DNA of 64,000 nt from Lampris incognitus (lineage: Eukaryota > Chordata > Actinopteri > Lampriformes > Lampridae). The position numbers and the translations under genes are program-made. The notes below the pieces were generated by a model. That model worked only from the letters and a program-made list of their open reading frames with translations, searched no databases and was not told where the DNA came from. Shown here piece after piece: positions 5,172 through 56,058 of this stretch (the first letter of the stretch is position 1; the number at the start of each line of letters is the position of its first letter). Where the stretch lies: assembly GCF_029633865.1 (NCBI RefSeq), contig NC_079213.1, positions 95,763,320-95,827,319 on the forward strand. The letters run 5' to 3'.

Positions 5172-6297
5172 CTTTGATTTTCTCACCTGGATTATTGCGC
5201 ATGCGTCAAGACGATGTATAGGATAGTGTGGCATTGAGGTTGTCAACACATTAACTATAAAACAAATCTATAATTGAAAAAAGACTTGTTTATAGATAAT
5301 AGATCATGTAAGGCGAGAACTGATCCATATCTTCATAAAATGAATAGATCACATAAAATCACAATATATTCTGCCGATGACTCAGGAGTTAGAAGGAAAA
5401 GCCTCTTTACTGATAAAGGTAAAGCCTAAAGCCATGTGTTCTTCTACTGAATAAAGGCAAATGGGTACAGGGGGACAAAGGCGAGGTTAGGGCCGGTGGG
5501 AGTATGAGGGGGTGTTGGGTTATAGGTTGATGGCAGATTTGTGGGATCTTTCTGATGTGATGCCACACCTCAGAGGAGGCCAGGTTGGGAGAAACTGGGT
5601 CAGTGATAGGTGTGACGCGATCTCAGTGTGCGTGTGTGTGATAAAATAGAGAGAGAGCGCGAGACAGAAAGAGAGCGCAAGACGGACAGAGAGAGCGAGA
5701 CAGAGAGACAGAGACAGAGAGAGAGAGAGAGAGAGTGAGAGAGAGTAGATGAGGAAAAACAGTGAGGAATGGAGGACGTGTGTGTGTGTGTGTGAGGGTG
5801 ATGAGGGTGGAGCGGAGGTTGGAAAAGGCTTACATGGTAAATGGAGAGGAATGAGAGGGCGTGGGTCTGGCCGAGGCCTCTGATCCCACACCTGCATATG
5901 GATCCCACTGTTTGAAGTGTTTCCTGCTCAGCCTCCCCACAGCCTGCCGGCTCACAGCACAGATGATTGATGACACATCTCTAGCTCCTCGGTTTTACAC
6001 ACCAAAGCAGACAACGCGCTGAGGAGTGTCAGATTCTCAGCCTGAGAAGCAGAGAGAAAATGGGGCTAAAATCATACGATGTGGGGAGACAAGAAAAGAA
6101 AGTGTCACTCCAAATCACGAGTTAGTCACAGTCACAGCTTACAGTAACTTCAGACTATCCAAGCCAAGAACATGCAAACCAGAGCCTGTTTCCAACATTA
6201 TGAGTCACGACGTCCCCTTGGCTTTTGCACTACAACACTGCTTTTCTTTATTGTGATTTAAACTCAGAGTATAGTATATATATACATATATACATAT
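5172..6297. other. No gene recognised; purine-rich (GA)n tract
   Basis: A degenerate (GAGA)n/(GAGACA)n tract spans about 5648-5745. A TATA-rich low-complexity run lies at about 6270-6297. Frames predicted across the GA tract are low-complexity artefacts. Confidence 0.5.
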
Positions 6298-6426
6298 TGT
6301 AGCAAATTCGGGGGGCAACCACTGCCGCAGCCGGGACGCGAACCCGTATGTCCCGCACCGCGAGAGACATTGCTTACCGCTCGACTAAAGGGTCCGACCC
6401 GTGTCTACTTATCCATGCACGTTACA
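6298..6426 (-). mobile_element. Solo/partial tRNA-like LTR of the TRIM family (- strand)
   Basis: In reverse orientation this begins TGTAACGTGCATGGATAAG and ends with 'tttgctaca', matching the LTRs at 54885-55041 and 55159-55313. It has a deletion of roughly 20 bases before the tRNA-like part. The tRNA-like region (A-box 'tagtcgagcgg', B-box 'ggttcgcgtcc') is retained. On its right (6427-6450) is the reverse complement of the purine-rich tract and 3' internal end, so this is a 3' LTR in minus orientation. Confidence 0.75.
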
Positions 6427-6474
6427 CTACCCCCCTCCTTCAGGAAGAGCATCCGATGGAGGGGGGTAATGTAA

Positions 6475-6613
6475 TGTAACGATCACGGATGAATAGGCTC
6501 GGTAGCCCTTGGCTAACGGGTCGGACCCTTTAGTCGAGTGGTTAGCGATGTCTCCCACGGTACAGTAGATATGGGTTCGCGTTCCGGCTTCGGCAGTTCC
6601 TGCGGTCGCTACA
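6475..6613 (+). mobile_element. tRNA-like LTR of the TRIM family (+ strand)
   Basis: It starts TGTAACGATCACGG and ends 'tcgctaca'. It belongs to the subfamily with the 'gatcacrgatgaat' 5' end, shared with 55905-56058. It is preceded by a purine-rich tract 'ggaggggggtaatgtaa', so it is a 3' LTR. Together with the minus copy at 6298-6426 it forms a head-to-head pair whose 5' LTRs are missing. The B-box-like sequence is 'ggttcgcgttcc'. Confidence 0.75.
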
Positions 6614-6644
6614 ACACACACACACACACATACACACACACACG

Positions 6645-7378
6645 TAACGAGAGTCAGCACCTCCAAGTCTGAGGCCATGGTTCTCTACCGGAAAATGGTG
6701 GATTGCTCCCTCCGGGTTGGAGATGAGTTGTTGCCTCAAGTGAAGGAGTTCAAGTATCTCAGGGTCTTGTTCACCAGTGAGGGTAGGATGGAGCGGGAGA
6801 TTGACAGGCGGATTGGTGCAGCATCAGCTGCCGTTGGGGCGAAGAAGGAGCTGAGCCGGAAGGCAAAGCTCTCAATTTACCAGTCAATCTTCGTTCCAAT
6901 CCTCACCTATGGTCATGAGCTTTGGGTAGTGACCGACAGGGTGAGATCGCGGATACAAGCAGCTGAAATGAGTTTCCTCCATAGGGTGTCTGGGCTCAGG
7001 CTTAGAGATAGGGTGAGGAGCTCGGATATCTGGAGGGAGCTTGGAGTAGAGCCGCTGCTCCTTCTCATTGAAAGGAGCCAGTTGAGATGGTTATGGCATC
7101 TGATTAAGATGCCTCCTGGGCGCCTTCCTTTGGAGGTTTACCGGGCACGGCCAACTGGGAGGAGACCCCGGGGTAGATCCAGAACTCGCTGGAGGGACTA
7201 CATGTCCAATCCGGCCTGAGTACGCCTTGGGATCGCCCAGGAGGAGCTGGAGGGCGTTGCTGGGGAGAAGGACGTCTGGAGTGCCCTACTTAGCTTGCTG
7301 CCACCAGAACCAAGCCATAGCAATGCCACCACGACCCGACCCCGGAAAAGTGGCTGAAGATGAGACGAGATGAGATAT
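6645..7378 (+). pseudogene. 5'-truncated non-LTR retrotransposon, C-terminal end of reverse transcriptase ORF
   Basis: The frame from about 6645 through the ATG at 6677 to a TGA at 7217 encodes the end of a LINE ORF2. It has the typical fish LINE sequence 'TYGHELWVVTDRVRSRIQ', a basic 'GRRPRGRSRTRWRDY' segment and 'LERSQLRWLWHL'-like spacing. The frame continues beyond the TGA (...GIAQEELEGVAGEKDVW...) to about 7360, so TGA probably replaced a Trp codon. The element ends in a GATGAGA-type tail abutting the next LTR at 7381. The catalytic YADD part is absent. I think it is CR1/Rex1-like but cannot fix the clade. It is dead. Confidence 0.75.
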
Positions 7379-7380
7379 AG

Positions 7381-7527
7381 TGTGACGACCATGGATGACT
7401 AGACCCGCTAGCCCTTGGCTGACGAGTCAGACCCTTTATTTGACTGGCTAGCGCAGTCGCCCGTGGTGCGGGCGATCCGGGTTCGATTCCCGGCTGCGGT
7501 TCCCGGCTGCCCCCTGAATTCGCTACT
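7381..7527 (+). mobile_element. TRIM-family LTR with the best-preserved tRNA-like fold
   Basis: This copy shows the tRNA likeness most clearly. An anticodon-type arm has a 5-bp stem CGCCC/GGGCG (7458-7462 / 7470-7474), extendable by one T-A pair, around a 7-base loop GTGGTGC with T in the conserved position 33. A T-arm has a 5-bp stem CCGGG/CCCGG (7477-7481 / 7489-7493) around the 7-base loop TTCGATT. The B-box 'ggttcgattcc' (7480-7490) is perfect. It begins TGTGACGACC and ends 'cgctact' (final A changed). It is a solo LTR, flanked by ATAG on the left and ATAT on the right. Confidence 0.75.
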
Positions 7528-7620
7528 ATATATATATATATATATATACTACACACACACATACATACATACATACATACATATAGACACACACATACAC
7601 ACACACACACACACCGTGTG
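7527..7620. repeat. (TA)n, (CATA)n and (CA)n microsatellites
   Basis: Consecutive AT, CATA and CA tracts directly follow the LTR. The (TG)n at 7617-7628 is complementary to the CA tract and could pair with it. Confidence 0.9.
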
Positions 7621-7628
7621 TGTGTGTA

Positions 7629-8579
7629 ACTTCTCTAAGAAAAACAGTAAAACTCAATTCGTTCTCATTTATTGTTGAGTGAGCAAACTTGGCTCCCGAG
7701 ACCCAAGTAAGCTTTGTAGTCTGAGTAGCAGCCTGAGGCATGCTGGCTATCTTCCAGGTATATTTCACAACCGAGCAGGTTCACTGCATTTATTCTATAG
7801 AGATGGAATGTTCAACATATGGCCCTGTGTGTGCGTGTGTGTGTGTGGGGGGGGTCTGTGTCCGTGTCTTGTGCTATATGTGTACTGTTGCATACGTGAA
7901 TGAGATTATCTATGATGAGTTTCAGCCCCACCTCTTATTATTACACGTTAGTCAAAGAGTACGTCATCACATCCTTGGCCAACGCATTCCAAAGTGTCGG
8001 GTGTGATGGGGCGACAAAACCTGTATATCACGCTGGTGAGCAATCAACAATCCATTTGTTAATTGTTGGCATGTGACAGTACAAATAACCCTAGACTGCT
8101 GATTGATATGTTTGTCAATGTGTTTACCTGCTCTACGAGCAGTGACAAGACTATGGAGAGGGTGCAGCCGCCCCCCCCCTGCATGATTACATATAGACTT
8201 AATGCATTAAAATGAGTCATTGTTCCTGACTTCAGTGTTCGTGATTAAAGCCACTGGCATGCATATGACTAAAGAAGTGTGTAATCAGCACATCAATGTC
8301 ACTTCAAACTCAAACTCATGCCTGTCGCAGTTAGATCAAGGCGTGTCATCAATCAGCATGTATTGATTGATTGATTTGCACCACTAAGGCAGGGCCTATC
8401 ACGTTTGCAGTTTGAAACTCAACTCTTGGTTTTGCATTCTTTCCCCGTGTGCTGGGCCATTCATCTCGTCCACAGTTTCTCCAGTGTTGTGAGGCCATCC
8501 AGATAGTAAAACTGCTGTGGCCTGGACACGTCCCACACTGACACTTTCATCCGACCCACATACTGTGTGCACTTGGGCG
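7629..8579. other. No gene recognised
   Basis: Unique-looking AT-rich sequence with a short (TG)n near 7826-7846 and a poly-C run near 8170. No frame has recognisable similarity. Confidence 0.5.
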
Positions 8580-28089: not shown

Positions 28090-28244
28090 TGTAACGTGCA
28101 TGGATAAGTAGACACGTTGGTCCTTGACTAACGGGTCGGACCCTTTAGTCGACTGGTTAACGTTGTCGCTTGCGGTGCAGGAGATACGGGTTCGCGTCCC
28201 GGCTGTGGCGACGGTATCTCGGACTGCCCCCCGAATTCGCTACA
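28090..28244 (+). mobile_element. Solo tRNA-like LTR of the TRIM family (155 bp)
   Basis: It begins TGTAACGTGCATGGATAAG and ends 'cgaattcgctaca', and is nearly identical to the LTRs at 54885 and 55159. It contains 'tagtcgactgg' (A-box-like) and 'ggttcgcgtcc' (B-box-like). It is flanked by TTAG and TTAT, a possible imperfect 4-bp target duplication. No primer-binding site or internal domain follows, so it is a solo LTR formed by LTR-LTR recombination. Confidence 0.8.
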
Positions 28245-38571: not shown

Positions 38572-38742
38572 GGGCGGACACTGACTCAGCTCCTGAATCG
38601 CTAGCCTCGCCCACTTTTGATATCATTATTTTAATAAAGTATATTAAATACTTATGTAGCGCCCCCATGCTGCAGTGATGGACATGTCACTTTACATTAA
38701 CTCAACTCTCTCTTAGGGGCGCCCTGAGTTCTTTTATATATC

Positions 38743-39048
38743 GACTCCCGTATTTTCACAATGTGTGTCTGGTGTGTGTCTGTGTGGGAGTCTATAAATG
38801 GCCAAACTAAAGCACTTGGGGCCTTGATTCTTTTTGGATGTTATTGGGGATGATCAGGGGCACCTATAAAAAATAGCAGAACATTAAAATTATGCATAAT
38901 ATGCGGAATATGCATAAAATATGTGGAATCGACTCCCGTATTTTCACAATGTGTGTCTGGTGTGTGTCTGTGTGGGAGTCTATAAACGGCCAAACTAAAG
39001 CACTTGGGGCCTTGATTCCTTTTGGAGGTTATTGGGGACGATCAGGGG
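38743..39048 (+). repeat. 188-bp tandem repeat, units 1 and 2 (left part)
   Basis: A unit beginning 'gactcccgtattttcacaat' starts at 38743 and again at 38931. It contains 'gcacttggggccttgattc', 'gatcagggg' and an AT-rich end with 'atgcataatatgcggaatat'. The second unit is cut at 39048 by the Gypsy insertion and resumes at 43909-43982. A diverged third relative lies at 44650-44860. Confidence 0.8.
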
Positions 39049-39611
39049 TGTTGTGACTTCTCTTATGTACACTATTGTAGTGTTACTATTCGTGGGTTAC
39101 TAACTTAATCACTATTATATATAAGTACACGGAGACGAGGATGCGGCACAAGTCTGATCTTTACTGACAGAGACATCACACACTACTAGGCTCGACCAGT
39201 GTATTACAGAACTCAGTAGTGGTGACAGTCCAACACAATCGAGCACCGAGTGCTCGATCCAATACACCACATCCCTCTTTTCCAACTGAGATGTGGCCTA
39301 CTCATCAGTTGCTTCAACAGTAGACCCTTTACCGAACCATTAACACTATGGCATTAACACTGAACAAGTCTTTTCTACTTGCATACTTCAATGATTAATA
39401 CAGCATTTTTTTTAAATGACAGATGACTCTCATTAAACAACATAAACCATTTCCTTTTCACATTCTGGTGGTTAGCATGTAAACATTTTGAACATTCAGC
39501 AATCTTGCAACATTTCAGGTTAAACACACCTTGTACTCTTTGTTTCACCATCTTTTTTTCTTTTTTTTTTCTTAATAAACACTTGAATGATCACACAAAA
39601 GAACCCTGAGG

Positions 39612-40598
39612 TTAGTCATTGTATCTGGCAGGGCGCCTAACTGCTCTGCCGCACTTTGTGTAGCATGTGGGTGTACTGCCTGTAGTCACCGGAGGAGGGT
39701 CGTGTGGTGGCAGGTCATGTGGTGGTGAGTCGACTGGCACAGGCGCTTGTGAGGGTGAGGGTTGTACCTCTGAGTCAAAATGTTCATCACTGTCCGTGTC
39801 TCTGAATAGGCTCGGATGTATCTTCCTCAGATGTCGCCTGTTCCTTCTTTGCATCCTCCCAGCCGGTGTCTGCACAGTGTAGGACCGTGGTTCATCTCGC
39901 TGTCGGATGACAACGGCAGGCTCCCAGCCGCGCCGCGTTTGCATGTGTACAGTGTCTCCTGGGGTCAACACTGGCAGGGGCTTTGCACACTGGTCGTAAC
40001 GTTGTTTTTGGCGGAACTGCAGGTTCCGGATCTTGCTGTGAATGTGCTGTGGGACTGATTGTGTCAGCACAGCACTGGAGCACGGAAGTGTGCTTCGTAG
40101 AACTCTCCCCATCAACATTTGTGCAGGTGATACGTCCAGTCCTGTCACCGGTGTGTTCCTCAGTGACAGCAGCACCAGATGTGGGTCAGTGCCGGTCTGC
40201 ATTGCCTTCTTCAGCGCATGTTTCACTGTCTTTATGGCTCTCTCAGCTATGCCATTTGAAGAGGGAAAACCCAGGCTGGAGTGTGTGAGCTTGAACTCCC
40301 ATGAAGCTGCAAATGACTTCATCTCATAGCTGGCAAATGGGACATGGTCACTCACTATCTCCCTAGGAATCCCGTGTCTGGCAAACACAGACTTCATCTT
40401 CTGGATTACTGTGTATGCTGTTTTGTCAGATATGTTGAGCACTTCAGGATATTTGTTTAGGTAATCAACTAACAACAGGTATGACTGACCGTGTAGCTCG
40501 AAGATGTCAGCTCCGACTTTCATCCATGGCAGTTCTGGGACCTGATGCGACATAAGTGGCTCAGTCTGCTGTTTGGGCTGTAGCTGCTGGCACTGCAC
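39612..40598 (-). CDS. Gypsy integrase core and C-terminus (shifted frame, 328 codons)
   Basis: It continues the integrase after the frameshift. 'WMKVGADIFELHGQSYLLLVDY' contains the first catalytic Asp, 'REIVSDHVPF' the second (canonical N after D is H here), and 'GFPSSNGIAERAIKTVKHAL' the Glu. The C-terminal part has 'LTPGDTVHMQTRRGWEPAVV', a GPY/F-like segment, and a Pro-rich end. No chromodomain is visible. The ATG at 40598 is incidental; the protein would be produced only by correction of the frameshift or by programmed shifting, which the sequence does not prove. Confidence 0.9.
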   Translation of the reverse strand: MQCQQLQPKQQTEPLMSHQVPELPWMKVGADIFELHGQSYLLLVDYLNKYPEVLNISDKTAYTVIQKMKSVFARHGIPREIVSDHVPFASYEMKSFAASWEFKLTHSSLGFPSSNGIAERAIKTVKHALKKAMQTGTDPHLVLLSLRNTPVTGLDVSPAQMLMGRVLRSTLPCSSAVLTQSVPQHIHSKIRNLQFRQKQRYDQCAKPLPVLTPGDTVHMQTRRGWEPAVVIRQRDEPRSYTVQTPAGRMQRRNRRHLRKIHPSLFRDTDSDEHFDSEVQPSPSQAPVPVDSPPHDLPPHDPPPVTTGSTPTCYTKCGRAVRRPARYND

Positions 40599-43582
40599 AC
40601 ACTTTTCACCATTGCCTCTATATCTCGTGCCATGCCAGGCCAGTAGAGAGACTTTCTTGCTCTGGCTTTTGTGCGCAGCACTCCTTGGTGTGCAAGATGC
40701 AGCTTCTCCAAAATCGTGCTCCTGAAGCTCTGGGGTATGATGATTTTGTCTCCGACCAAGACAATGTCATCTTCCATGCTTATAATGTCCTTTACTGCCC
40801 AGTAGGCATGTAGTTTTCTGTCCAAACTTTTCTTTTTCATGGGCCAGCCTTTCTTGTGTTTCTCACACACAGCTTGCAGCACGCTATCTGCTGCCGTTGC
40901 TTTCTTTAATTGGCTGAGTGTTTCCTCGCTCAAGGCATCTGTGGCATCCAAGGCATAGACAACTCTCTCATCACAAGGGTTTTCATCAATATGGTCACCT
41001 TCTCTGCTAGCTGTAGCGCGTGAGAGTGTGTCGGCAATGTACATGTGCTTGCCTGGTGTGTATGTTACACTCAGATCATACCTCTGCAGTTGTAAAAGCA
41101 TACCTTGCAGCCACGCAGGTGCTTTGCTCAGCGGCTTGCGCATGATGACCTCCAGAGGCTTATGATCGGACTGGACAGTCACTGGTCTGCCGTAGACATA
41201 CTGGTGGAATCTCTTAGCAGCAAACACTATAGCGAGCAACTCTTTCTCTATCTGTGCGTACCTCTTTTCTGTGTCGGTGAGCGCTCGTGAGGCATAGCAC
41301 ACTGGATGGTCGTCCTGCATCAGACAGGCTCCCAGTCCATCCTTTGAGGAGTCTGCTTGTAGAGTGAGAGGCTGCTTGTGATCGTAGTATCTCAGCACAG
41401 GGGCTTGTGTGAGGATGGTCTTTAGTGCCTTTAGCGCTGAGCTGTGGTGCGGGCACCATTGCCACGCTACATCCTTCTTGAGCAGCTGTCTGAGGGGTGC
41501 CGTGAGTGAGGCTTCGTTTGGTATGTATTGCGCTAGGAATTTTGTCATTCCCAGCAGACGTTGGAGACTTTGTTTGTCTTCCGGGGTTGGCATGTCGACA
41601 ATCGCTTTGATCTTTGTGTCGTCAGCTCTCTGTCCTGCTGCCGTGATGACGTGTCCCATGTACTTTACAGTATCAACTTTAAGCTGGATCTTGCCCCTGT
41701 TAAATTTCACATGTGCGGTCTTGGCTCTCTCCATTACTTTCTGCAGGATTTCATCGTGTTCCCGCTCTGATGACGCTGCGATGATCATGTCGTCTGCTAT
41801 AATGTACACACCTGGGATATCGCCGAAGGTCTCACAGTTCTTTTGTTGAAACACTTCGCTGGCCAATTTGATCCCGCATGGGAGTCTGAGGAAGCGGAAC
41901 CGGCCCCACGGCGTGTTGAAGGTGCATAGCTTAGACGACGGCTCATCTAGCTTGATCTGCCAGTATCTATCCTTTTCATCTAGGATGGAGAAGATGGATT
42001 TTCCTGTTAGCCTGCTGCGCACGTCTTCCGGTGTAGGAATGGAGTAGCGTTGACGCTTGACTGCCTCATTCAGGTTACAAGGATCCAAACATACCCTTAG
42101 CGCACCATTTTTTTTCTTTGTGGCAACAAGACTGTTCACCCATTCTGTAGGTTCATTGACAGGAGTTATGACTTTCCTGTTCTGCAAGTCTGTGAGCGTC
42201 TCTCTTAGTGAGTCCATGATGGAGAGTGGTACGTTCCTGCACGCGTGAATCACAGGCGTGACGCTGGGGTCAATGTGTATGTGATGAACTCCAGGAAATT
42301 CGCCTAATCCTGTGAAGACCTCCGCATACCTCTGTAGCAGCTCCTCTTTGGTGGCCGGAGGTTTTGCTGGTTGTGGGGACTCCACTGCAAGCGCCTCGAC
42401 TCTTCTCACCAGCTGCAGCTCTTCACACGCATCTCCACCCAGGATTGGCTTGTCAGCTCGGCTAGACACATGGAAGTCCAATATAGCCATATGCTTAGAT
42501 GTGCGGCAATCTAGAGATGCAACACCATCTGAGGGTAGTCGTGCACCACCAAAAGCAATCAGCATAGTCTTTGTGGGCAGTAACTGAACGGGACCTGGTA
42601 GCTGCCGGAATACGCGCATAGGAAGCACATTTGCATCGGCGCCCGTGTCCAACTTGAAGTTAATTGCTACGCCTCTGACCGTGGCTGTTTCACGCCATAC
42701 AGTGCCTTTAGCTCGGTGGGCTGCTTTGTTTTTGTATTTTCCAATCATACCTATATATAAGGAATCAATTTCACTTTCTAGATTATGCACTGTCTTTGTC
42801 TTGTAATTGCCGCTTTTTTCAGTGCTTGATTTACACACCTTGGAAAAATTATTGTTCTTACCAAATTTGTGGCACACTGCACCATAAGCTGGGCATTGAC
42901 GGGGCTCATGTTTATTTCCACACTTGTGGCAGAGAGTTGTTGCTACATGCCTCTTGCTGCTCGTCTTGTTCTTGTTCCAGCTGCGCGTTTGCCCTGTTGC
43001 TTTCTTCAATGCCTCCACTGAGGCGTCTTGGACAACATGTGACGTCTGCATCGCTTGTATTTGTGACTTAGCGAGCTCGGCTGATCTACATATCTCTACG
43101 GCCCTGCGCAAAGTAAGCTCATTATCACGTGACAGTCTTTCTTTCAAACGGGCATCATTTATGCTGAACACTAATTTATCCCTTATCATGTCATCTTCAT
43201 GTCTGCCAAACTCACAGTCTTTGCTCTTCTGGCGCAACTCTGTGATGAATCTGTCCACCGATATTCCTGCTGACATCGTGTGCGACCAGAATTGATGGCG
43301 TTCGAACACGACGTTCTTCCGAGGGCTGCAGTAGTCCTTGAAGGCTTTCAGAACGTCCTCCATCGATTCGTCGTCTCCTTCTGGGATGATGGTGAGTGTG
43401 TTATACACTTCCAGCGCCTCCTCGCCGATGGTGTGAAGCAGAATGGCTATTTTAACTGTCTCTGCCTTATCCAACGCACCTGAAGCGGTCATGTACAGCT
43501 GGAAACGCTGCTCCCATCTTCTCCAGTTTTCTGCGACATTCCCGGTAAGTATCAGCGGTGGTGGCAGCTTGAACTGTTCCAT
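40520..43582 (-). CDS. Gypsy gag-protease-RT-RNase H polyprotein (1020 codons)
   Basis: Starting from the ATG at 43582, the domains in order are as follows. Gag capsid (about residues 1-200). Zinc knuckles (about 218-250): 'CHKCGNKHEPRQC' and a second one in which a Cys is Phe ('CHKFGKNNNFSKVC'). Aspartic protease with 'LDTGADANVLP' (about 311-321). Reverse transcriptase (about 450-640) with 'FSILDEKDRYWQIKL' and the catalytic 'IIADDMII' (595-601). RNase H with 'LQADSSKDGLGA' (about 745) and 'SDHKPLEVI'. Start of integrase with the HHCC finger ('HLAHQGVLRTKARARKSLYW'). The frame ends in 'IRSQNCHG' because of a single frameshift near 40600, beyond which the correct frame continues at 40598-39612. 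Confidence 0.93.
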   Translation of the reverse strand: MEQFKLPPPLILTGNVAENWRRWEQRFQLYMTASGALDKAETVKIAILLHTIGEEALEVYNTLTIIPEGDDESMEDVLKAFKDYCSPRKNVVFERHQFWSHTMSAGISVDRFITELRQKSKDCEFGRHEDDMIRDKLVFSINDARLKERLSRDNELTLRRAVEICRSAELAKSQIQAMQTSHVVQDASVEALKKATGQTRSWNKNKTSSKRHVATTLCHKCGNKHEPRQCPAYGAVCHKFGKNNNFSKVCKSSTEKSGNYKTKTVHNLESEIDSLYIGMIGKYKNKAAHRAKGTVWRETATVRGVAINFKLDTGADANVLPMRVFRQLPGPVQLLPTKTMLIAFGGARLPSDGVASLDCRTSKHMAILDFHVSSRADKPILGGDACEELQLVRRVEALAVESPQPAKPPATKEELLQRYAEVFTGLGEFPGVHHIHIDPSVTPVIHACRNVPLSIMDSLRETLTDLQNRKVITPVNEPTEWVNSLVATKKKNGALRVCLDPCNLNEAVKRQRYSIPTPEDVRSRLTGKSIFSILDEKDRYWQIKLDEPSSKLCTFNTPWGRFRFLRLPCGIKLASEVFQQKNCETFGDIPGVYIIADDMIIAASSEREHDEILQKVMERAKTAHVKFNRGKIQLKVDTVKYMGHVITAAGQRADDTKIKAIVDMPTPEDKQSLQRLLGMTKFLAQYIPNEASLTAPLRQLLKKDVAWQWCPHHSSALKALKTILTQAPVLRYYDHKQPLTLQADSSKDGLGACLMQDDHPVCYASRALTDTEKRYAQIEKELLAIVFAAKRFHQYVYGRPVTVQSDHKPLEVIMRKPLSKAPAWLQGMLLQLQRYDLSVTYTPGKHMYIADTLSRATASREGDHIDENPCDERVVYALDATDALSEETLSQLKKATAADSVLQAVCEKHKKGWPMKKKSLDRKLHAYWAVKDIISMEDDIVLVGDKIIIPQSFRSTILEKLHLAHQGVLRTKARARKSLYWPGMARDIEAMVKSVCSASSYSPNSRLSHLCRIRSQNCHG

Positions 43583-43908
43583 ATTCGTGCGCAGGCTAGC
43601 ACGTGTTAGCTAGCTGCCTCAGCTACCAGCGAACTCGTTGAAGTACTGCCCTCGAATTATACCGTAACTCCGTCTTCTGACACCATGTTGTGACTTCTCT
43701 TATGTACACTATTGTAGTGTTACTATTCGTGGGTTACTAACTTAATCACTATTATATATAAGTACACGGAGACGAGGATGCGGCACAAGTCTGATCTTTA
43801 CTGATGGAGACATCACACACTACCAGGCTCGACCAGTGTATTACAGAACTCAGTAGTGGTGACAGTCCAACACAATCGAGCACCGAGTGCTCGATCCAAT
43901 ACACCACA

Positions 43909-44640
43909 AGGGGCACCTATAAAAAATAGCAGAACATTAAAAATCTGCATAATATGCGGAATATGCATAAAATATGTGGAATCCCTTCAGAATCCTGAGC
44001 AGTTCAACAAGATGGCGGGCTCTGGCTACGTCACGCCTCGGCTCTTTCCGCCGTTCGCACAAACCTCGCGTTCTTAACGGGTTGCTGGACGGCGGGCGGA
44101 GACAGCGAGCAGCGTTGGAAATACAAAGCGTCCGTGAAATAAGCCACAACGTCAGAGTCACATTTGCATGGGTCGAGCACTGGCGTATATGGCGGCTGTC
44201 ACGTGAAGTGAACTCAATAAAGTTTTCTGTTTTTGAATGGAAATCAGCGCGTACGGGCGGTTCGGGTTTTGGCGGGTCTGACGAACAATAAAGTTGTCCG
44301 CTGTTGCGCGCGTGGAAGTGTCCGAGGGTCTTGTCTGATGAATCAGATTTAAAGGCCCAAACATACTCGGGCGGAATGTACGCGGAGCGGACTCCACGAG
44401 GAATGTCCGCAGTCATTTGGGCTTCCATAGTCGAGCGCACTTCCGCGTTGTAGTTTCCTGTAAAACTCCGCGAAACACTACATTACCCACAATGCTTGCG
44501 TGTTGTTTACACTCTTCTGTCATGGCGTCCGACACTGACGACGAGGAAGAGATGCTCTTGCCTGCTGGCTCTACATGAAAATAAACTGAAGAGACGGTGG
44601 TATGTATCCTCTCTGTGACGTGTCGTACAGGTGTGGGTAC
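43909..44640. other. Right half of repeat unit 2 and CpG-rich unassigned sequence
   Basis: 43909-43982 completes the tandem unit cut by the Gypsy. 44000-44450 is rich in CpG and contains 'aagatggcgg', 'tacgtcacgc', and 'gtatatggcggc' words similar to the ends of ISL2EU-type elements, but no inverted partner was identified. Frames here are not convincing. Confidence 0.5.
44522..44578 (+). pseudogene. Possible N-terminal exon remnant of a PIF/Harbinger-type transposase
   Basis: The ATG at 44522 opens an acidic start 'MASDTDDEEEMLL' that stops at 44576. One base over, the sequence continues as a basic 'LKRRWYV' segment, a combination typical of the start of Harbinger-type proteins. There is no downstream transposase in this place. 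Evidence is slight. Confidence 0.25.
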
Positions 44641-49311: not shown

Positions 49312-52300
49312 TGTTTCAGTAGGCTATCTTATAAAGAATGACACACACACGAGTTGCTCAGTGCAGCCAAGTATATTCAAAGTGATGTAACATGTTCCTG
49401 AGCGCGGGTCATGTGTATCTAAGGTAAACTAGTGGATAGCCGATGGCATCGATCTATCTAGACCCGTAACATCCTCCTTTTCCAAGTATAAACACATACA
49501 CATGAAGTTAGTGCAAAATAAAATTACTTTCATATACGAACAACCAATAACAGTGCAACAGCAGTAAATCTCTTCATATCCCATACCAGTGTAATAACCA
49601 CAGTAGCGTATGATAACATTTCTCCTCTTTTCCCCCTCTCTCCCACATAGCAACCATCAACATTATTCAGATTACATAGTGAGTTTCAGTGGAGGTTTAG
49701 ACAGCCGTCCAACCCTTGTGTAAGTGTGTCCATCCGAACGCGGAGCGCCAACAGGAGTAGATGGCGCCTTGGGCATGGACCTGATGGGGCTCGGCTCGAA
49801 CACAGCCTGAGGGGTCTCAATGACAGTTTCTGTAGCTGGATCCCCGTCCGGTGTGTGTGCCGCAGCGGGTTCAACAGGATCGTGCGTGGCTCGTGCAGCT
49901 GGCTCAGCCACTCTGAGATCGATCCTGTTACGACGGTACAGGGAGCCATCAATGTCCACAAGATAAGACCGCGGCGCAACCCTGCGGAGACAAGTTCCGA
50001 CTCTCCAGCGGCCAGTGTTATCACCTGGCAGGGGCTTCATCCGTACGACTTCCCCAATTTCAAGTGCCGGCAATTCACGGGCAGATCTGTCATAGAAGGA
50101 TTTGGCGAGTTGCTTCCTGTGGCGCAGCTTTTCAGTGACGCCCACGACAACAGCTGGTTCCAGGAGCTTGCTTGCCGCCGGGATGGACGTCTTCAACCGG
50201 CGGGACATGAGGCGTTGTGCTGGGCTGCTGCCCATGTTTTCCGTAGGTGTATTCCTCCAGTGAAGCACGGCTTTCCAGGGGTCTTCACCATCATGCGCGG
50301 CCTTACGCAGAAGATTTTTTACAATCTTCACGGCCGACTCGGCCTTGCCATTCGCTTTCGGGTGTCTGGGAGAGGAGGTCACGTGCTCAAATTCCCACTC
50401 AGAAGCGAACCGTGTGAACTGAGCTGTGAACTGAGGGCCGTTGTCTGTAATAACCTTCTCTGGCTGACCATGTCGGGCGAACTGTGCCTTACATCGCTTG
50501 ATGACTGTCTCTGCAGACATGTCGGGTAGAAGCTCAATCTCCCAAAAATCGGAATAGTGGTCGACTATTAGGAGATAGTCTTTCTGTCTGAAGCTGAATA
50601 GTTCCATGCTCAAGACCTGCCATGGCCTGGTTGGTACTTCGTGAGAGAGCATGGTCTCCTTTTGCTGATTGTGGGCGTACACATTGCAGGTCGAGCAGCT
50701 GCTTACAAAGTCCTTTATCTCTGACTGCATGTTGGGCCAGTACAATGTCTCTTGAGCGTGTCGGTAGCATGCATCACCCCCTATGTGACTTGAATGTATG
50801 CGCGTCAACATTTCTGGGCGGAGTGACTTTGGGATGATGACTTTTTGCCCCCGGAACAGAACTCCGCTCTGCACACTGATTTCATCCCTGAAGGGCCAGT
50901 ACTCCCTAGCGATGAGGGGCGCTTCCTCCTTTACATCTGGCCAGCCCACGAGAACAGTGTTCTTCAGTGCCTGTAAGCATTCATCTCTGTCGGTGTGTCG
51001 TCTGATCTGTTCCAGCCGCTGGTTAGTCACATTCAGGTACTCTGCCTGGTTCACGTGCTGTATGTCTTCCTGCTCTTGTTGCAGAGAGCAGATAGCGTGT
51101 CGCTGATATGCAGTCCCTCTGCCGGAGCATCCAGCCGTAGCTCTGCTGAGCGTGTCGCTTATGAACATCTCTGGGCCTGGTTTGTAGATTACCCTCAGGT
51201 CGTAGTTCTGCAGAGTCATGAGCATGCTCTGGAGTCTCTTGGGCGCATTGAGAAGTGGCTTGCTGAAAATAGAGATCAGAGGCTTATGGTCCGTCTCTGC
51301 TGTGATTGGGTCGCGGCCATATAGGTAATGGTGAAACCTCTGGCAGGCGAAGACGATACTGAGACACTCCTTCTCAATTTGTGCATAGTTTTTTTCGGTG
51401 GGGGTAAGAGCCCTCGAGGCAAATGCGATGGGCTGACCTTCCTGCATGAGACAACAACCGAGACCGCTCTGGCTGGCGTCGCTCTGGATTGCGATTGGCT
51501 TAGTTACATCATAGTAGCGCAGGACGGGCATGGCTGTCGCCAGCGCCTTAAGCTCATGAACCGCCGCCTCGTGCTTAGGCAGCCAGTGCCAGGGTGTGTC
51601 CTTGTCCAACAGGCGTCGCAACGGCTCGCAGACAGTAGATAGATGAGGCATGAACTTGGCTAAATAGTTAGCGAAGCCAATGAGACGCTGCACGCCCTTG
51701 GCATCTGTTGGGTTCGGCATGTCAATAATGGCTCTCACCTTCTCTGGATCGGGCTTCAGTCCAGCAGATGAGAGAATGTGGCCATGAAACTGCACCTCAG
51801 CCACCTTGAACTGCAACTTCTTCAGGCCGAGGCGAAGCTTGACCTCGCGGCAGCGTTCCATCAACGTCGCAAGCTTGACGTCGTGGTCGTCCCCAGCCTC
51901 CTTGTCTGTGTCCCCGCAGCCGACGACCAGGATATCGTCTGCAATGGGCTCAACGCCCTTCAGACCGGCGAGGAGCTCGTGCTGCTTGCGCTGATATACC
52001 TCGGGCGCCACTGATACTCCAAATGGTAGCTTGAGCCACCGCTTCCTCCCCCAGGGGGTCCAGAACGTGGTCATGAGGCTACTCTCATAGTCCAGTTTGC
52101 ATTGCAGGAATGCATCCCGAGCGTCCACTAACGTGAAGACTCTGGCCTTGGGCAATTTATACAAAATGTCCTCCAAGGTAGGCATGATGTAGTGAGAGCG
52201 CTTTAGGGCTTTGTTCAATGGTTTAGGGTCAATGCATATTCTCAGCTTCTCCGGTTTTTTAACAATCACCATGTTGCTGATCCAATCTGTAGGACCTGTG

Positions 52301-54077
52301 ACAGGCGCAAGGTGGCCGTCAGCCTCGTACTTGTCCAGCTGGGCTTTGACTGCTGCTTTCATTGCGATTGGGACATTGCGAGGGGCACTCTGTACTGCAG
52401 CAACACTAGCATCAAGGTCAAAATGGACCTCCCCAGGCACGGATTCCACAGGGGAGTTGAACACGTCACTGTATCTGTTGATAAGCTGTTCTTTAGTTAG
52501 GGCTCCTGGTTGTGTGTGTTCCATTTTGAGCACATCCTCTGGAATTGTGAAATGCATGAGCCCTAAGCGTTCACAGGTGGAGCCTGACAGAAGAGGATGT
52601 TGGCTGGTCCTCACTATTTCGAATGAGAGCTTGTGTGTTTGGCCTCTCACAGTACAGTCAGTCTCAAAGGTGCCCATAGAGCTCAGTGTTTCCCCCGAAT
52701 ACAGCTTCAGTCTGGTGTCACTCGGGCGGAGAGGTGTGTTTGGGGCCAGCCTTTTCTTGTCTTGAAAGCCCATTACATTGCAGGTGGCTCCAGAGTCCAG
52801 CTGACATTGTTGTGGCTTGTCGTGGAGTTTCAGAGTCACAAACCACTTCTTTCCTTTGGTGTGCACTGCGCCGATTGACTCAAACATGTACAGATCATCT
52901 GCATCATTACTATGCTCTGGGGGTTCTTCTGTGTATTCCACACAGTTTACCTTGCCCTCAGCATGCCCCTTTTTGCTCTTTAAGCACACTTTAGAAAAGT
53001 GATTAAGTGTCCCACATGACCTACATTGTTTCCCGAAGGCCGGGCAATGCTCTCTGCCCCTTGAATGCGAGCTGCCACAATATTTGCAATTGCCTGCATC
53101 TCCTGCTGTTCTGGGTGGATTGCTCTGTTTCCATTGGTTTTGTCTGGGTTGCCTAGCAACGGCATGCACTACCTCCGGCTGCGGTGTTGTTGCAAACTCC
53201 ATTGCTCTCATACGGATGTCAGTTTGCTCTGCTGCGCGACACATGTCAATAGCTGTGACCATGTTCAAATCCTTCTCTCTCAACAGCCTGCGCCTAACGG
53301 CCTCGCTTGCAACTCCCAGGACTATCTTATCACGGATCATTTCATCTTTCAACTGTCCATACTCACAGGTTGCTGCCCTCTCTCTCAGTCTCGTCACAAA
53401 GGTATCAAACGATTCTCCTTCCTCCTGCTTGCAACTCCCGAAAATGTACCTCTCGTATATTGTGTTTTTTGCTGGCTTGAAGTATTTCCCCAACTCTCTC
53501 AGTATGGCGTCAGGATCCCCTTGATCATCTTCTGAGAGGTTCAGATTGTGGCGGTAAATATGCCTGCATTCACTTCCCATCACACTTCTTAGAGTAGCCG
53601 CTTGTATTTTCTTGTCCTTGCCAAGTATGCCCGTGACGAGGACGTAGTCTTCATATTCGGCCCGAAAAATGTCCCAATTGACACTCCAATCGCCTGTGAA
53701 GCTCATCGGGGACGGTGGTGGAATATTCACGTTAGCTGCCATTGTATGTGATGCTATCGGCGCCGGTAATGCTAGCGTTAGCTCCTCTGTGACAACGTCT
53801 TCAGCAGAAGTACTTTGCTCTGAATCGGAATCCTCCGACATGTGACCTACTCAGGCCTACAAACTTAAACATGCGAGCTAGTAAAATAAGAAATAAGTTC
53901 TCCGACTTCTGGCACCATGTTTCAGTAGGCTATCTTATAAAGAATGACACACACACGAGTTGCTCAGTGCAGCCAAGTATATTCAAAGTGATGTAACATG
54001 TTCCTGAGCGCGGGTCATGTGTATCTAAGGTAAACTAGTGGATAGCCGATGGCATCGATCTATCTAGACCCGTAACA
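49312..54077 (-). mobile_element. Intact Ty3/Gypsy element with identical LTRs, 5-bp target duplication
   Basis: LTRs at 49312-49471 and 53918-54077 are 160 bp each and identical base for base by eye. They start TGTTTCAGTAGG and end CCGTAACA. The target duplication is AGCTT (49307-49311 and 54078-54082). In element orientation the primer-binding site is TGGTGCCAGAAGTCGGAG directly inside the 5' LTR. One uninterrupted ORF fills the interior. Zero LTR divergence and an open ORF indicate a very recent, possibly still active, insertion. Confidence 0.97.
49672..53841 (-). CDS. Gypsy Gag-Pol polyprotein, single intact ORF (1389 codons)
   Basis: Domains in order are as follows. Acidic N-terminus and Gag capsid (about 45-215, 'LGKYFKPAKNTIYERY'). 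Two zinc knuckles (about 252-287, 'CKYCGSSHSRGREHC' and 'CRSCGTLNHFSKVC'). Aspartic protease 'LDSGATCNVMG' (about 348). Reverse transcriptase (about 500-680) with 'TLVDARDAFLQCKL' and the catalytic 'PIADDILVVG' (632-641). RNase H 'IQSDASQSGLGC' (785). Integrase HHCC finger 'HSSHIGGDACYRHAQETLYW', then the DDE core with 'LLIVDHYSDF', 'VITDNGPQF' and 'HPKANGKAESAVK'. C-terminal 'LPALEIGEVVRMKPLPG' segment. No env and no chromodomain. The start is the ATG at 53841, about 75 bp from the LTR. All catalytic residues are present; only activity tests could show competence. Confidence 0.97.
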   Translation of the reverse strand: MSEDSDSEQSTSAEDVVTEELTLALPAPIASHTMAANVNIPPPSPMSFTGDWSVNWDIFRAEYEDYVLVTGILGKDKKIQAATLRSVMGSECRHIYRHNLNLSEDDQGDPDAILRELGKYFKPAKNTIYERYIFGSCKQEEGESFDTFVTRLRERAATCEYGQLKDEMIRDKIVLGVASEAVRRRLLREKDLNMVTAIDMCRAAEQTDIRMRAMEFATTPQPEVVHAVARQPRQNQWKQSNPPRTAGDAGNCKYCGSSHSRGREHCPAFGKQCRSCGTLNHFSKVCLKSKKGHAEGKVNCVEYTEEPPEHSNDADDLYMFESIGAVHTKGKKWFVTLKLHDKPQQCQLDSGATCNVMGFQDKKRLAPNTPLRPSDTRLKLYSGETLSSMGTFETDCTVRGQTHKLSFEIVRTSQHPLLSGSTCERLGLMHFTIPEDVLKMEHTQPGALTKEQLINRYSDVFNSPVESVPGEVHFDLDASVAAVQSAPRNVPIAMKAAVKAQLDKYEADGHLAPVTGPTDWISNMVIVKKPEKLRICIDPKPLNKALKRSHYIMPTLEDILYKLPKARVFTLVDARDAFLQCKLDYESSLMTTFWTPWGRKRWLKLPFGVSVAPEVYQRKQHELLAGLKGVEPIADDILVVGCGDTDKEAGDDHDVKLATLMERCREVKLRLGLKKLQFKVAEVQFHGHILSSAGLKPDPEKVRAIIDMPNPTDAKGVQRLIGFANYLAKFMPHLSTVCEPLRRLLDKDTPWHWLPKHEAAVHELKALATAMPVLRYYDVTKPIAIQSDASQSGLGCCLMQEGQPIAFASRALTPTEKNYAQIEKECLSIVFACQRFHHYLYGRDPITAETDHKPLISIFSKPLLNAPKRLQSMLMTLQNYDLRVIYKPGPEMFISDTLSRATAGCSGRGTAYQRHAICSLQQEQEDIQHVNQAEYLNVTNQRLEQIRRHTDRDECLQALKNTVLVGWPDVKEEAPLIAREYWPFRDEISVQSGVLFRGQKVIIPKSLRPEMLTRIHSSHIGGDACYRHAQETLYWPNMQSEIKDFVSSCSTCNVYAHNQQKETMLSHEVPTRPWQVLSMELFSFRQKDYLLIVDHYSDFWEIELLPDMSAETVIKRCKAQFARHGQPEKVITDNGPQFTAQFTRFASEWEFEHVTSSPRHPKANGKAESAVKIVKNLLRKAAHDGEDPWKAVLHWRNTPTENMGSSPAQRLMSRRLKTSIPAASKLLEPAVVVGVTEKLRHRKQLAKSFYDRSARELPALEIGEVVRMKPLPGDNTGRWRVGTCLRRVAPRSYLVDIDGSLYRRNRIDLRVAEPAARATHDPVEPAAAHTPDGDPATETVIETPQAVFEPSPIRSMPKAPSTPVGAPRSDGHTYTRVGRLSKPPLKLTM

Positions 54078-54497: not shown

Positions 54498-54884
54498 CTC
54501 TACATTGTTAGACACAGTAGGTGCAACAATGCTGGTCGCCATTTCTGCAGTAGTCTAAACGTGCGGACTAACTCAAGAAAACGGAAGAGGGCTGCAGAGT
54601 ACGGGAGTAGTAAGGCAGACTCATTTCTGCCCCGATGAGCCTCTGTTGGCACTTATTGCAGTTCTCATCTTTGACCACAAGGCACCATAATAAATCTGCC
54701 AGCGACAGCGGATCGCTGAGGTCTCCTGCCCCAATATTGCGCAACGCACAAATTGAGACTGAACCACTGAAACGACGATTTTAACGTTCAAAGATCAAAA
54801 GTTATTGACTAATTTGATTAATTGCACAAAAACTAGGTAATGCTTACTGCAATGTAAATTATGATGTATTAACGCGGAAAATAG
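54491..54884. other. No gene recognised
   Basis: Short unique sequence between the hAT fragment and the TRIM cluster. 'atggcgaccagcattg'-like start on the - strand near 54540 may belong to the hAT gene 5' end but is unsupported. Confidence 0.4.
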
Positions 54885-55042
54885 TGTAACGTGCATGGAT
54901 AAGTAGACACGTTGGTCCTTGACTAACGGGTCGGACCCTTTAGTCGACTGGTTTACGTTGTCGCTTGCGGTGCGGGCGATACGGGTTCGCTTCCCGGCCG
55001 CGGCAGTTCCTGTGGTTGCGTTGTCCCCCGAATTCGCTACAT

Positions 55043-55060
55043 TGGTGTCAGAAGTGGGAT
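55043..55060 (+). promoter_or_regulatory. tRNA-Leu-type primer-binding site of the TRIM
   Basis: TGGTGTCAGAAGTGGGAT is complementary to a tRNA-Leu 3' end (ATCCCACTTCTGACACCA, including CCA). It would prime minus-strand DNA synthesis. The same site occurs at 55853-55870 (one change) and in reverse at 55640-55657. Confidence 0.85.
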
Positions 55061-55143
55061 GGAGCGACCGTAAGGCCATCGGAAGCGTAGGCGCCCTGAG
55101 GCGTGAAGGAGCTGATATGCTTAAGCGCGGGGACGCGCTTCCC

Positions 55144-55158
55144 GAAGGAGGGGGGTAG
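55144..55158 (+). promoter_or_regulatory. Polypurine tract of the TRIM
   Basis: A G-rich run GAAGGAGGGGGGTAG abuts the TG of the 3' LTR, the position of a plus-strand primer. Counterparts lie at 55890-55904 (+), 55606-55623 (-), 6458-6474 (+) and 6427-6440 (-). Confidence 0.75.
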
Positions 55159-55436
55159 TGTAACGTGCATGGATAAGTAGACACGTTGGCCCGTGATTAA
55201 CGGGTCGGACCCTTTAGTCGACTGGGTAACGTTGTCGCTTACGGTGCAGGAGATACGGCTTCGCGTCCCGGCTGTGGCGACGGTATCTAGGACTACCCCC
55301 TGAATTCGCTACAATAGCTTATGAGGAGGAACTATGTTTTTAGGTGGATTTTTTTTTTTAGTGAGGCATTGTCCCACATGAGCGGGCCGCGCCTGAGTTT
55401 GAATATGCGTGTTCTTGAACGTGTTTTTGTCTGTAT

Positions 55437-55758
55437 TGTAGCAAATTCGGGGGGGTGGCAACCACAGGAACTGCCGCAGCCGGGACGCGAACCCGTATCT
55501 CCCGCACCACGGGAGACAACGCTAACCGCGCGACAAAAGGGTCTGACCCGTTAGCGAGGGCATGGATAAATAGCCTAACGTGTTTATTTATCTATGCACG
55601 TTACATTACCCCCCTCCTTCGGGAAGCGCGTCCGCGCGCATCCCACTTCTGACACCAATGTAGCGAATTCGGGGTCAGACCGACCGGACCGTCACAGCCG
55701 GGACGCGAACTCGGATATCCCGCATAGCGGGCGACAAGGTTAACCAGTCGACTAAAGG
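55437..55758 (-). mobile_element. Minus-strand TRIM copy, 5' LTR truncated
   Basis: 3' LTR 55437-55605 (169 bp, reverse orientation, ending 'gcacgttaca'). Reverse polypurine tract 55606-55623. Internal sequence of about 53 bp in all. Reverse primer-binding site ATCCCACTTCTGACACCA at 55640-55657. 5' LTR from 55659 (TGTAGCGAATTC in + orientation), truncated at about 55758 within the A-box region, where it meets the inverted neighbour. Confidence 0.8.
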
Positions 55759-56058
55759 TGGAGCGGTTAACTATGTCGCTTGCGGTGCCGAATACACGAG
55801 TTCGCGCCCCGGCTGTGACGGTCCGGTCGGTCTGACCCCGAATTCGCTACATTGGTGTCAGAAGCGGGATGCGCGCGGACGCCCTTCCCGAAGGAAGGGG
55901 ACAATGTAACGATCACAGATGAATGGGCTCGGTAGCCCTTGACTAGCGGGTCGGACCCTTAAATCGATCAGTTAACGTTGTCACCCCACGGTGCGGGAAA
56001 ATCCGAGTTCGCGTCCCGGCTGTTACAGTCCGGCCAGGCTGCTCCCGAATTCGCTACA
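55759..56058 (+). mobile_element. Plus-strand TRIM copy, 5' LTR truncated
   Basis: The 5' LTR remnant is 55759-55851, with 'gagttcgcgccccgg' around the B-box, ending 'cgctaca'. Primer-binding site TGGTGTCAGAAGCGGGAT at 55853-55870. Internal region of 53 bp. Purine tract 'gaaggaaggggacaa'. 3' LTR 55905-56058, starting TGTAACGATCACAG and ending 'gaattcgctaca'. It mirrors the minus copy at 55437-55758 as a near-perfect palindrome at the centre. Confidence 0.8.

Follow-up and report, generated by a model that had tools for sequence, protein, structure and literature searches.

The closest described systems are the Helenus elements, TRIMs with tRNA-like LTRs which were named by Kojima (2024; PMC10886601) and reported there from fungi, animals and one plant. 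They are short (311-1263 bp), non-coding and carry two LTRs, and the fish families comprise LTR-11_DR of zebrafish and its relatives as well as those of the coelacanth, sterlet and paddlefish (PMC10886601). LTR-11_DR is represented in zebrafish by 5,575 LTRs and forms tandem arrays; animal members generate 4-bp target site duplications (TSDs), vertebrate members use tRNA-His, tRNA-Leu or tRNA-Lys as primers, and transcription by RNA polymerase III (Pol III) is called not validated in the same paper (PMC10886601). The statement of a first-pass annotation of the DNA described below, that no such case had been described, is therefore superseded.

Two other TRIMs are built on a similar plan. Cassandra of plants, whose LTRs resemble 5S rRNA, is likewise a miniature LTR element whose LTRs contain a promoter of the Pol III type, and likewise occurs as arrays of LTR-interior units, for which template switching in reverse transcription has been proposed (PMC7215508); it differs in its derivation from 5S rRNA and its plant hosts, whereas no 5S match was found in the copies tested of the family studied here. 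Ajax, a nemertean TRIM, also combines a small-RNA promoter with a tRNA-Leu primer, but is 5S-derived and generates 5-bp TSDs (PMC10886601).

The element compared here with these systems lies in a stretch of 64,000 nucleotides (the window), placed on C3 of a 1.48-Gb genome. RAG1 has a strong match on C9, split into blocks that score 1254 and 148 bits (cut-off 25). This identifies the host as a jawed vertebrate, the first-pass annotation having supposed a vertebrate; a split RAG1 is a feature of bony fishes. The parts of the window copy are as follows:

54881..54884, no strand: left target site duplication ATAG, read directly; 4-bp TSDs occur family-wide
54885..55313, + strand: whole TRIM copy, 429 bp
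54885..55041, + strand: 5′ LTR, 157 bp, subtype b to LTR position 81 and subtype a from 90
54941..54951, + strand: A-box-like TAGTCGACTGG at LTR position 57, one mismatch against TRGYNNARNGG
54984..54994, + strand: B-box-like GGTTCGCTTCC, one mismatch against GGTTCGANNCC
55042..55158, + strand: non-coding interior, 117 bp, too short for gag or pol
55043..55060, + strand: primer-binding site (PBS) TGGTGTCAGAAGTGGGAT, 18 nt, one base (T) after the 5′ LTR
55144..55155, + strand: polypurine tract (PPT) GAAGGAGGGGGG, followed by TAG and then the 3′ LTR
55159..55313, + strand: 3′ LTR, 155 bp, of subtype b, with the A box preserved at 55215-55225 and a degraded B box
55314..55317, no strand: right target site duplication ATAG, read directly

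Both LTRs begin with TG and end with CA, and they belong to two different subtypes with an identity of only about 83-87%. The PBS is presumably that of a tRNA-Leu, to whose 3′ end we take it to be complementary at 18 of 18 positions; a pattern for the 3′ end of the host tRNA-Leu has 48 matches in the genome and none in the control, a count that pools the isodecoders. The anatomy given by the first-pass annotation (LTRs of 157 and 155 bp, PBS, purine tract, 117-bp interior and ATAG duplication) is thus confirmed in every part. Its placement of both boxes in each LTR holds for the A box, which is present in both, but the B box occurs in the 5′ LTR only: at the corresponding site the 3′ LTR has GGCTTCGCGTCC and fails a test allowing one mismatch per box, so that the B box of the second LTR was overstated.

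Copies of the element abound in the genome, a search of which the first-pass annotation had proposed. A 32-base pattern spanning the LTR end and the PBS has 1,819 exact matches genome-wide and none in the reversed control, the LTR stretch at the opening of the tRNA-like box (without fixing the letters that distinguish the subtypes) has 2,830 exact matches, and the genome search gave at least 46 matches, the best 40 of 3,705 candidates having been scored. Other copies or pieces lie within the window itself, at 6298-6426, 6475-6609, 7381-7526, 28090-28244, 55437-55605, 55659-55851 and 55905-56058. The arrangements seen among the loci examined were (i) LTR-interior-LTR units, (ii) solo LTRs, (iii) arrays of three or four LTRs, and (iv) head-to-head pairs. 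A stretch at G000:C1:8455278-8456588, with eight LTR box starts spaced by about 142 bp and a ninth at double that spacing, is probably an array of LTRs without interiors. At L054 an LTR is followed by about 30 bases ending in TACA, and the ATAT on its right repeats the ATAT on its left; this is a deletion copy that has retained its duplication.

Perfect 4-bp TSDs flank 25 of the 38 resolved two-LTR chains (43 in total) and 2 of the 4 resolved three-LTR chains (5 in total). The corresponding figure for single LTRs is 16 of 40 resolved (46 in total), where 18 of the 40 end on the PBS or PPT and hence are not solo, and where two loci are entered twice (L041 = L069 and L042 = L070, none of these with a TSD). 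No 5-bp TSD was present among the 82 resolved chains. When flanks were swapped between copies the match rate was 13% for two-LTR chains and 15% for single LTRs, a control this high because the target is very uniform; 38 of 43 target duplications have the sequence RTAY. Together, the genome-wide matches and the paired copies with target duplications, which the first-pass annotation had proposed to count, go far beyond what chance would give.

The family shares with Helenus the size of a TRIM, A and B boxes in the LTR, a PPT, 4-bp TSDs and tandem arrays (PMC10886601), together with a tRNA-Leu PBS, LTRs in thousands of copies and a putative partner of the Gypsy type. Its placement in Helenus follows these described features, and not sequence identity to named members. 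The RTAY preference, the coexistence of two families with tRNA-Leu-type PBSs in a single genome, and the occurrence of LTRs that are chimeric or unequal were not found in the part of Kojima (2024; PMC10886601) consulted; relative to the description given there, the second family in the same genome and the breakpoint cluster described below look additional.

This second family was met in the flanks of the first: 20 of 22 recurrent flank matches, with similarity over about LTR positions 16-112, proved to be another small LTR element, a TRIM whose LTR is likewise tRNA-like. The LTR is about 135 bp long and starts with TGTAAAC, and the one LTR tested has a perfect A box, TAGCCGAGCGG, and a B box with two mismatches. 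Its PBS, TGGTGGCAGCGGTGGGAT, presumably fits another tRNA-Leu. Duplications of 4 bp flank 5 of 10 copies delimited by script (control 1%); two of the ten copies have an end on a PBS or interior of their own. RTAY is the sequence of just one of the five TSDs, so the integrase may be a different one. Loci of this family include L029, L038, L051, L045 and L013, among others.

The LTRs of the first family fall into two subtypes, a and b, which differ along most of their length. Exact core patterns of neighbouring LTRs occur genome-wide 341 times as a/a, 21 times as b/b, 4 times as a/b and 10 times as b/a (Fisher p about 4e-23), although in the reversed control b/b itself gave 23 matches vs 0 for the other three patterns; at 12 of the 21 b/b sites there is a copy that is among the genome matches listed. 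Agreement between the two ends is expected where both LTRs are made from one RNA in reverse transcription. These counts also led us to drop the idea that the unequal a/b pairs represent a self-copying master lineage. The distance within an element's own LTR pair is 0.067 for aa and 0.044 for bb, against 0.076 and 0.071, respectively, between LTRs of different elements; own pairs being only slightly closer, the copies look old. Two arrays, at L002 and at G000:C17:27369515-27370359 (the latter read from core patterns alone), have outer LTRs of type b and one a-bodied inner LTR.

Unequal units (a/b or b/a) have matching TSDs in 12 of 18 cases, the majority of the 18 coming from the search with the window copy as the query. 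Such units were thus inserted in this form or later converted, and did not arise by exchange between loci. The type of the U3 is identical at both ends in 15 of 22 pairs whose bodies differ, and in three further pairs the body is shared and the U3 is different. At interior column 49, the sole interior site that tells the subtypes apart, the b letter is present in 10 of the 13 chimeric or unequal copies scored and the a letter in 15 of 19 a/a copies.

Chimeric LTRs, which begin as one subtype and continue as the other, make up 29 of 211 distinct LTRs, and in 13 of them the switch falls within the interval between LTR positions 42 and 49 (42/49). In a clean set of 20 loci the switch is at 42/49 in 12 and at five other places in the remaining 8; that of the window copy is between 81 and 90. 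Nine LTRs had been removed from this set by eye, eight because they are mosaics that belong to older subfamilies and one because it is the second LTR at L044; L088, in which b-like letters return at the end, was retained. Of the 20 loci, nine came from a search in which the query was the whole window copy, which favours unequal pairs, and four from one in which it was the 5′ LTR of that copy; one is the window copy, and six belong to a sample of junctions from chromosome 1. The clustering has a p of about 7e-9 for 13/29 and of 3e-10 to 2e-9 for 12/20, values which ignore the choice of loci. In the chromosome-1 sample, chosen independently of similarity to the window copy, the switch is at 42/49 in 5 of 6 clean loci and in 5 of 11 when mosaics are counted (p about 3e-4).

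The 42/49 interval sits just upstream of the expected tRNA position +1. Its end is 8 bp ahead of the A box (position 57), and an RNA start within it (LTR 43-49) would precede that box by 8-14 bp, where Pol III starts. The cluster is a hint, short of proof, that the tRNA-like promoter is in use, and it is the one new piece of evidence bearing on the Pol III step.

A tentative explanation, which we put a little short of an even chance, is that the chimeric LTRs preserve traces of first-strand transfer from one to the other of two RNAs copied together, with a 5′ end at LTR 43-49. If so, the genome itself would provide evidence that the tRNA-like box of a Helenus element does initiate transcription. 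The unequal pairs would be explained likewise, those with intact TSDs as integrated cDNA whose synthesis began at a purine tract inside a concatemer. Most of the unequal-pair patterns would follow from strand transfer at the RNA 5′ end; the three pairs with the same body and a different U3 are not predicted by it. An alternative source of both unequal pairs and chimeric LTRs is ectopic gene conversion, or crossing-over from copy to copy or inside arrays; these three pairs speak for it, as does the existence of thousands of similar copies, of arrays and of inverted pairs. It would also accommodate the breaks located elsewhere, in 16 of 29 LTRs (8 of 20 clean loci), that of the window copy (81/90) included. 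Yet under conversion it is hard to see why one 7-bp interval should hold 13 of 29 breaks (12 of 20 in the clean set) when longer identical tracts exist, why the interval recurs in the chromosome-1 loci, or why exact junctions genome-wide number 27 at 42/49 against 20 at 49/64, tracts of 7 and 15 bp, respectively (p about 4e-4). The matching TSDs of 12 of the 18 unequal units also speak against it, and we regard it as possible but somewhat doubtful. Rather unlikely, in our estimate, is that the 42/49 chimera is one inherited subfamily and its breakpoint a single old event. Common descent would fit the T at LTR position 107 in 8 of 9 chimera/b copies (one unscored), as compared with about 61% of type a, and the last part of the 5′ LTR, which is slightly closer among chimera/b copies than to a/a copies (0.031 vs 0.039). 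Against it, the distance among their 3′ LTRs (0.075) nearly equals that separating them from the remaining b LTRs (0.079), the copying of LTRs predicts chimera/chimera pairs whereas one was seen against 11 chimera/b pairs, and L101 contains the reciprocal chimera with the same breakpoint. Should strand transfer be the true source of the chimeras, many copies of one assembly would map an RNA start and template switching without transcripts, and the Pol III step, which is unproven in Helenus, could be tested directly.

Head-to-head joints were considered as a further indication of the RNA start and were left out as evidence, because only about four of nine joints (by eye) are centred there. One of these palindromes, composed of two TRIM pieces, occupies window positions 55586-55924 (85% over 340 bp) and has its joint near LTR position 53-59; comparable joints are present at L061, L047, L053, L057, L078 and L082.

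The tRNA-likeness of the family consists of the boxes, and not of a complete tRNA. With at most one mismatch per box and 20-70 bp between the boxes, both boxes at tRNA spacing were found in 148 of 211 distinct full LTRs, themselves gathered by similarity to box-bearing LTRs; among the 211 reverse complements, 2 have such a pair. None of the 211 has both boxes perfect. The A box is perfect in 83 and has at most one mismatch in 205; the corresponding numbers for the B box are 1 and 155. In tRNA genes the B box reads GGTTCGA and its A is near-universal; this final A is present in 1 of the 211 LTRs, and 161 read GGTTCGC. The boxes, whose disappearance from the consensus the first-pass annotation had named as decisive against its reading, are present in most LTRs examined, except for the B-box A. 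In the 5′ LTR of the window copy, the pair of boxes was matched by 3 of 1000 dinucleotide shuffles.

The tRNA detection proposed in the first-pass annotation gave a negative outcome: ARAGORN reported no tRNA either in the window or in any of 60 loci (out of 131), and an Rfam search of the window copy, of window positions 6200-7700 and of 20 loci gave no tRNA match. There was also no 5S match by Rfam in the window copy and positions 6200-7700 (E up to 10) or in the 20 loci (E up to 1). All Rfam matches fell short of the gathering scores of their families and were attributed to chance; the two strongest (E about 1e-4) fall in a simple repeat and a palindrome, and two weak ones concern tRNA-like or Pol III RNAs (mascRNA, E 1.7; VA, E 0.24). 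Six LTRs compared with a human tRNA-Val scored within the range of their own shuffles. TTTT is absent from all 98 interiors and from 204 of the 211 LTRs, so that no usual Pol III stop lies inside, and neither AATAAA nor ATTAAA occurs in 210 of the 211. A TATA-like GATAAGTA is located about 25-30 bp upstream of the putative RNA start, which makes initiation by Pol II possible.

Taken as a whole, the family is very probably a TRIM of the Helenus kind, a non-autonomous LTR retrotransposon present in high copy number. Its RNA would be transcribed by Pol III from the tRNA-like box of the 5′ LTR, tRNA-Leu would serve as the primer, and another element, probably of the Gypsy type, would supply the proteins for copying and integration in trans. 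Less certainly, strand transfer of the cDNA at the RNA 5′ end (LTR 43-49) would join two RNAs or make concatemers, leaving chimeric LTRs, unequal pairs (the window copy among them) and LTR-interior arrays. It is rather unlikely that the family is instead an ordinary TRIM transcribed by Pol II, in which the boxes are the inactive relic of an old SINE insertion. The B-box A missing from 210 of 211 LTRs, the absence of a tRNA fold detectable by ARAGORN or Rfam, and the TATA-like sequence about 25-30 bp upstream of the putative start would suit such an element; the lack of AATAAA/ATTAAA in 210 of 211 LTRs and of TTTT in 204 would not, nor would an A box that is kept so well (perfect in 83 of 211, within one mismatch in 205, and perfect again in the one LTR tested of the second family) or a start placed 8-14 bp upstream of it, the site known for Pol III. 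Far less probable still is a tRNA-derived SINE in tandem pairs, mobilised by a LINE, whose LTR-like look would be due to tandem duplication. Such SINEs carry A and B boxes at tRNA spacing, have no LTRs, PBS or PPT, and insert in the LINE manner; the boxes, the high copy number and the many irregular and head-to-head arrangements could be read in this way. However, the family departs from the other SINE traits (absence of LTR, PBS and PPT, a LINE-type tail, TSDs of variable length): exact 4-bp TSDs with a preference for RTAY abut the TG...CA ends, there is an 18-nt PBS as well as a PPT, solo LTRs have TSDs, LTR types are paired, and the window copy has no A-rich or LINE-like tail. The precise TSD/LTR termini contradict this reading, and the sequence does not occur only as the single tRNA-type SINEs, lacking a PBS or paired ends, that the first-pass annotation had named as a refutation. 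What the annotation proposed, a vertebrate TRIM transcribed by Pol III from a tRNA-like LTR, stands as regards the TRIM and the boxes in most LTRs examined; its Pol III transcription is putative, and no tRNA fold was detected by the programs used. The combination of TRIM and SINE logic is thus real and common in this genome, and can be tied to a named group.

The junction between LTR end and PBS was followed at 66 distinct sites (L039-L111), of which 57 continue into the TRIM interior, 3 into part of it and 6 into other DNA. At two of these six, L041 and L042 (L069 and L070 after extension to 6.3 kb), and at L055 (L071), no gag-pol is joined to the TRIM LTR and PBS, so the full-length element sharing the LTR that had been envisaged in the annotation did not appear at the three loci followed. 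At L041/L069 and L042/L070 the LTR and PBS are joined to unrelated DNA soon after the PBS, and at L069 they run into a LINE-like reverse transcriptase stretch. The window also contains two Gypsy-type elements:

49312..54077, - strand: Gypsy-type element, 160-bp LTRs 100% identical, 1392-aa open frame (stop to stop)
38740..43983, - strand: second Gypsy-type element, 1029-aa frame, PBS-like TGGTGTCAGAAGACGGAG

The element at 49312-54077 was considered as the partner and rejected, as it is flanked by a 5-bp duplication (AAGCT) and its LTRs are not matched by the TRIM LTR; it looks like a recent insertion. The element at 38740-43983 has a 121-bp duplication on the side of its 3′ LTR.
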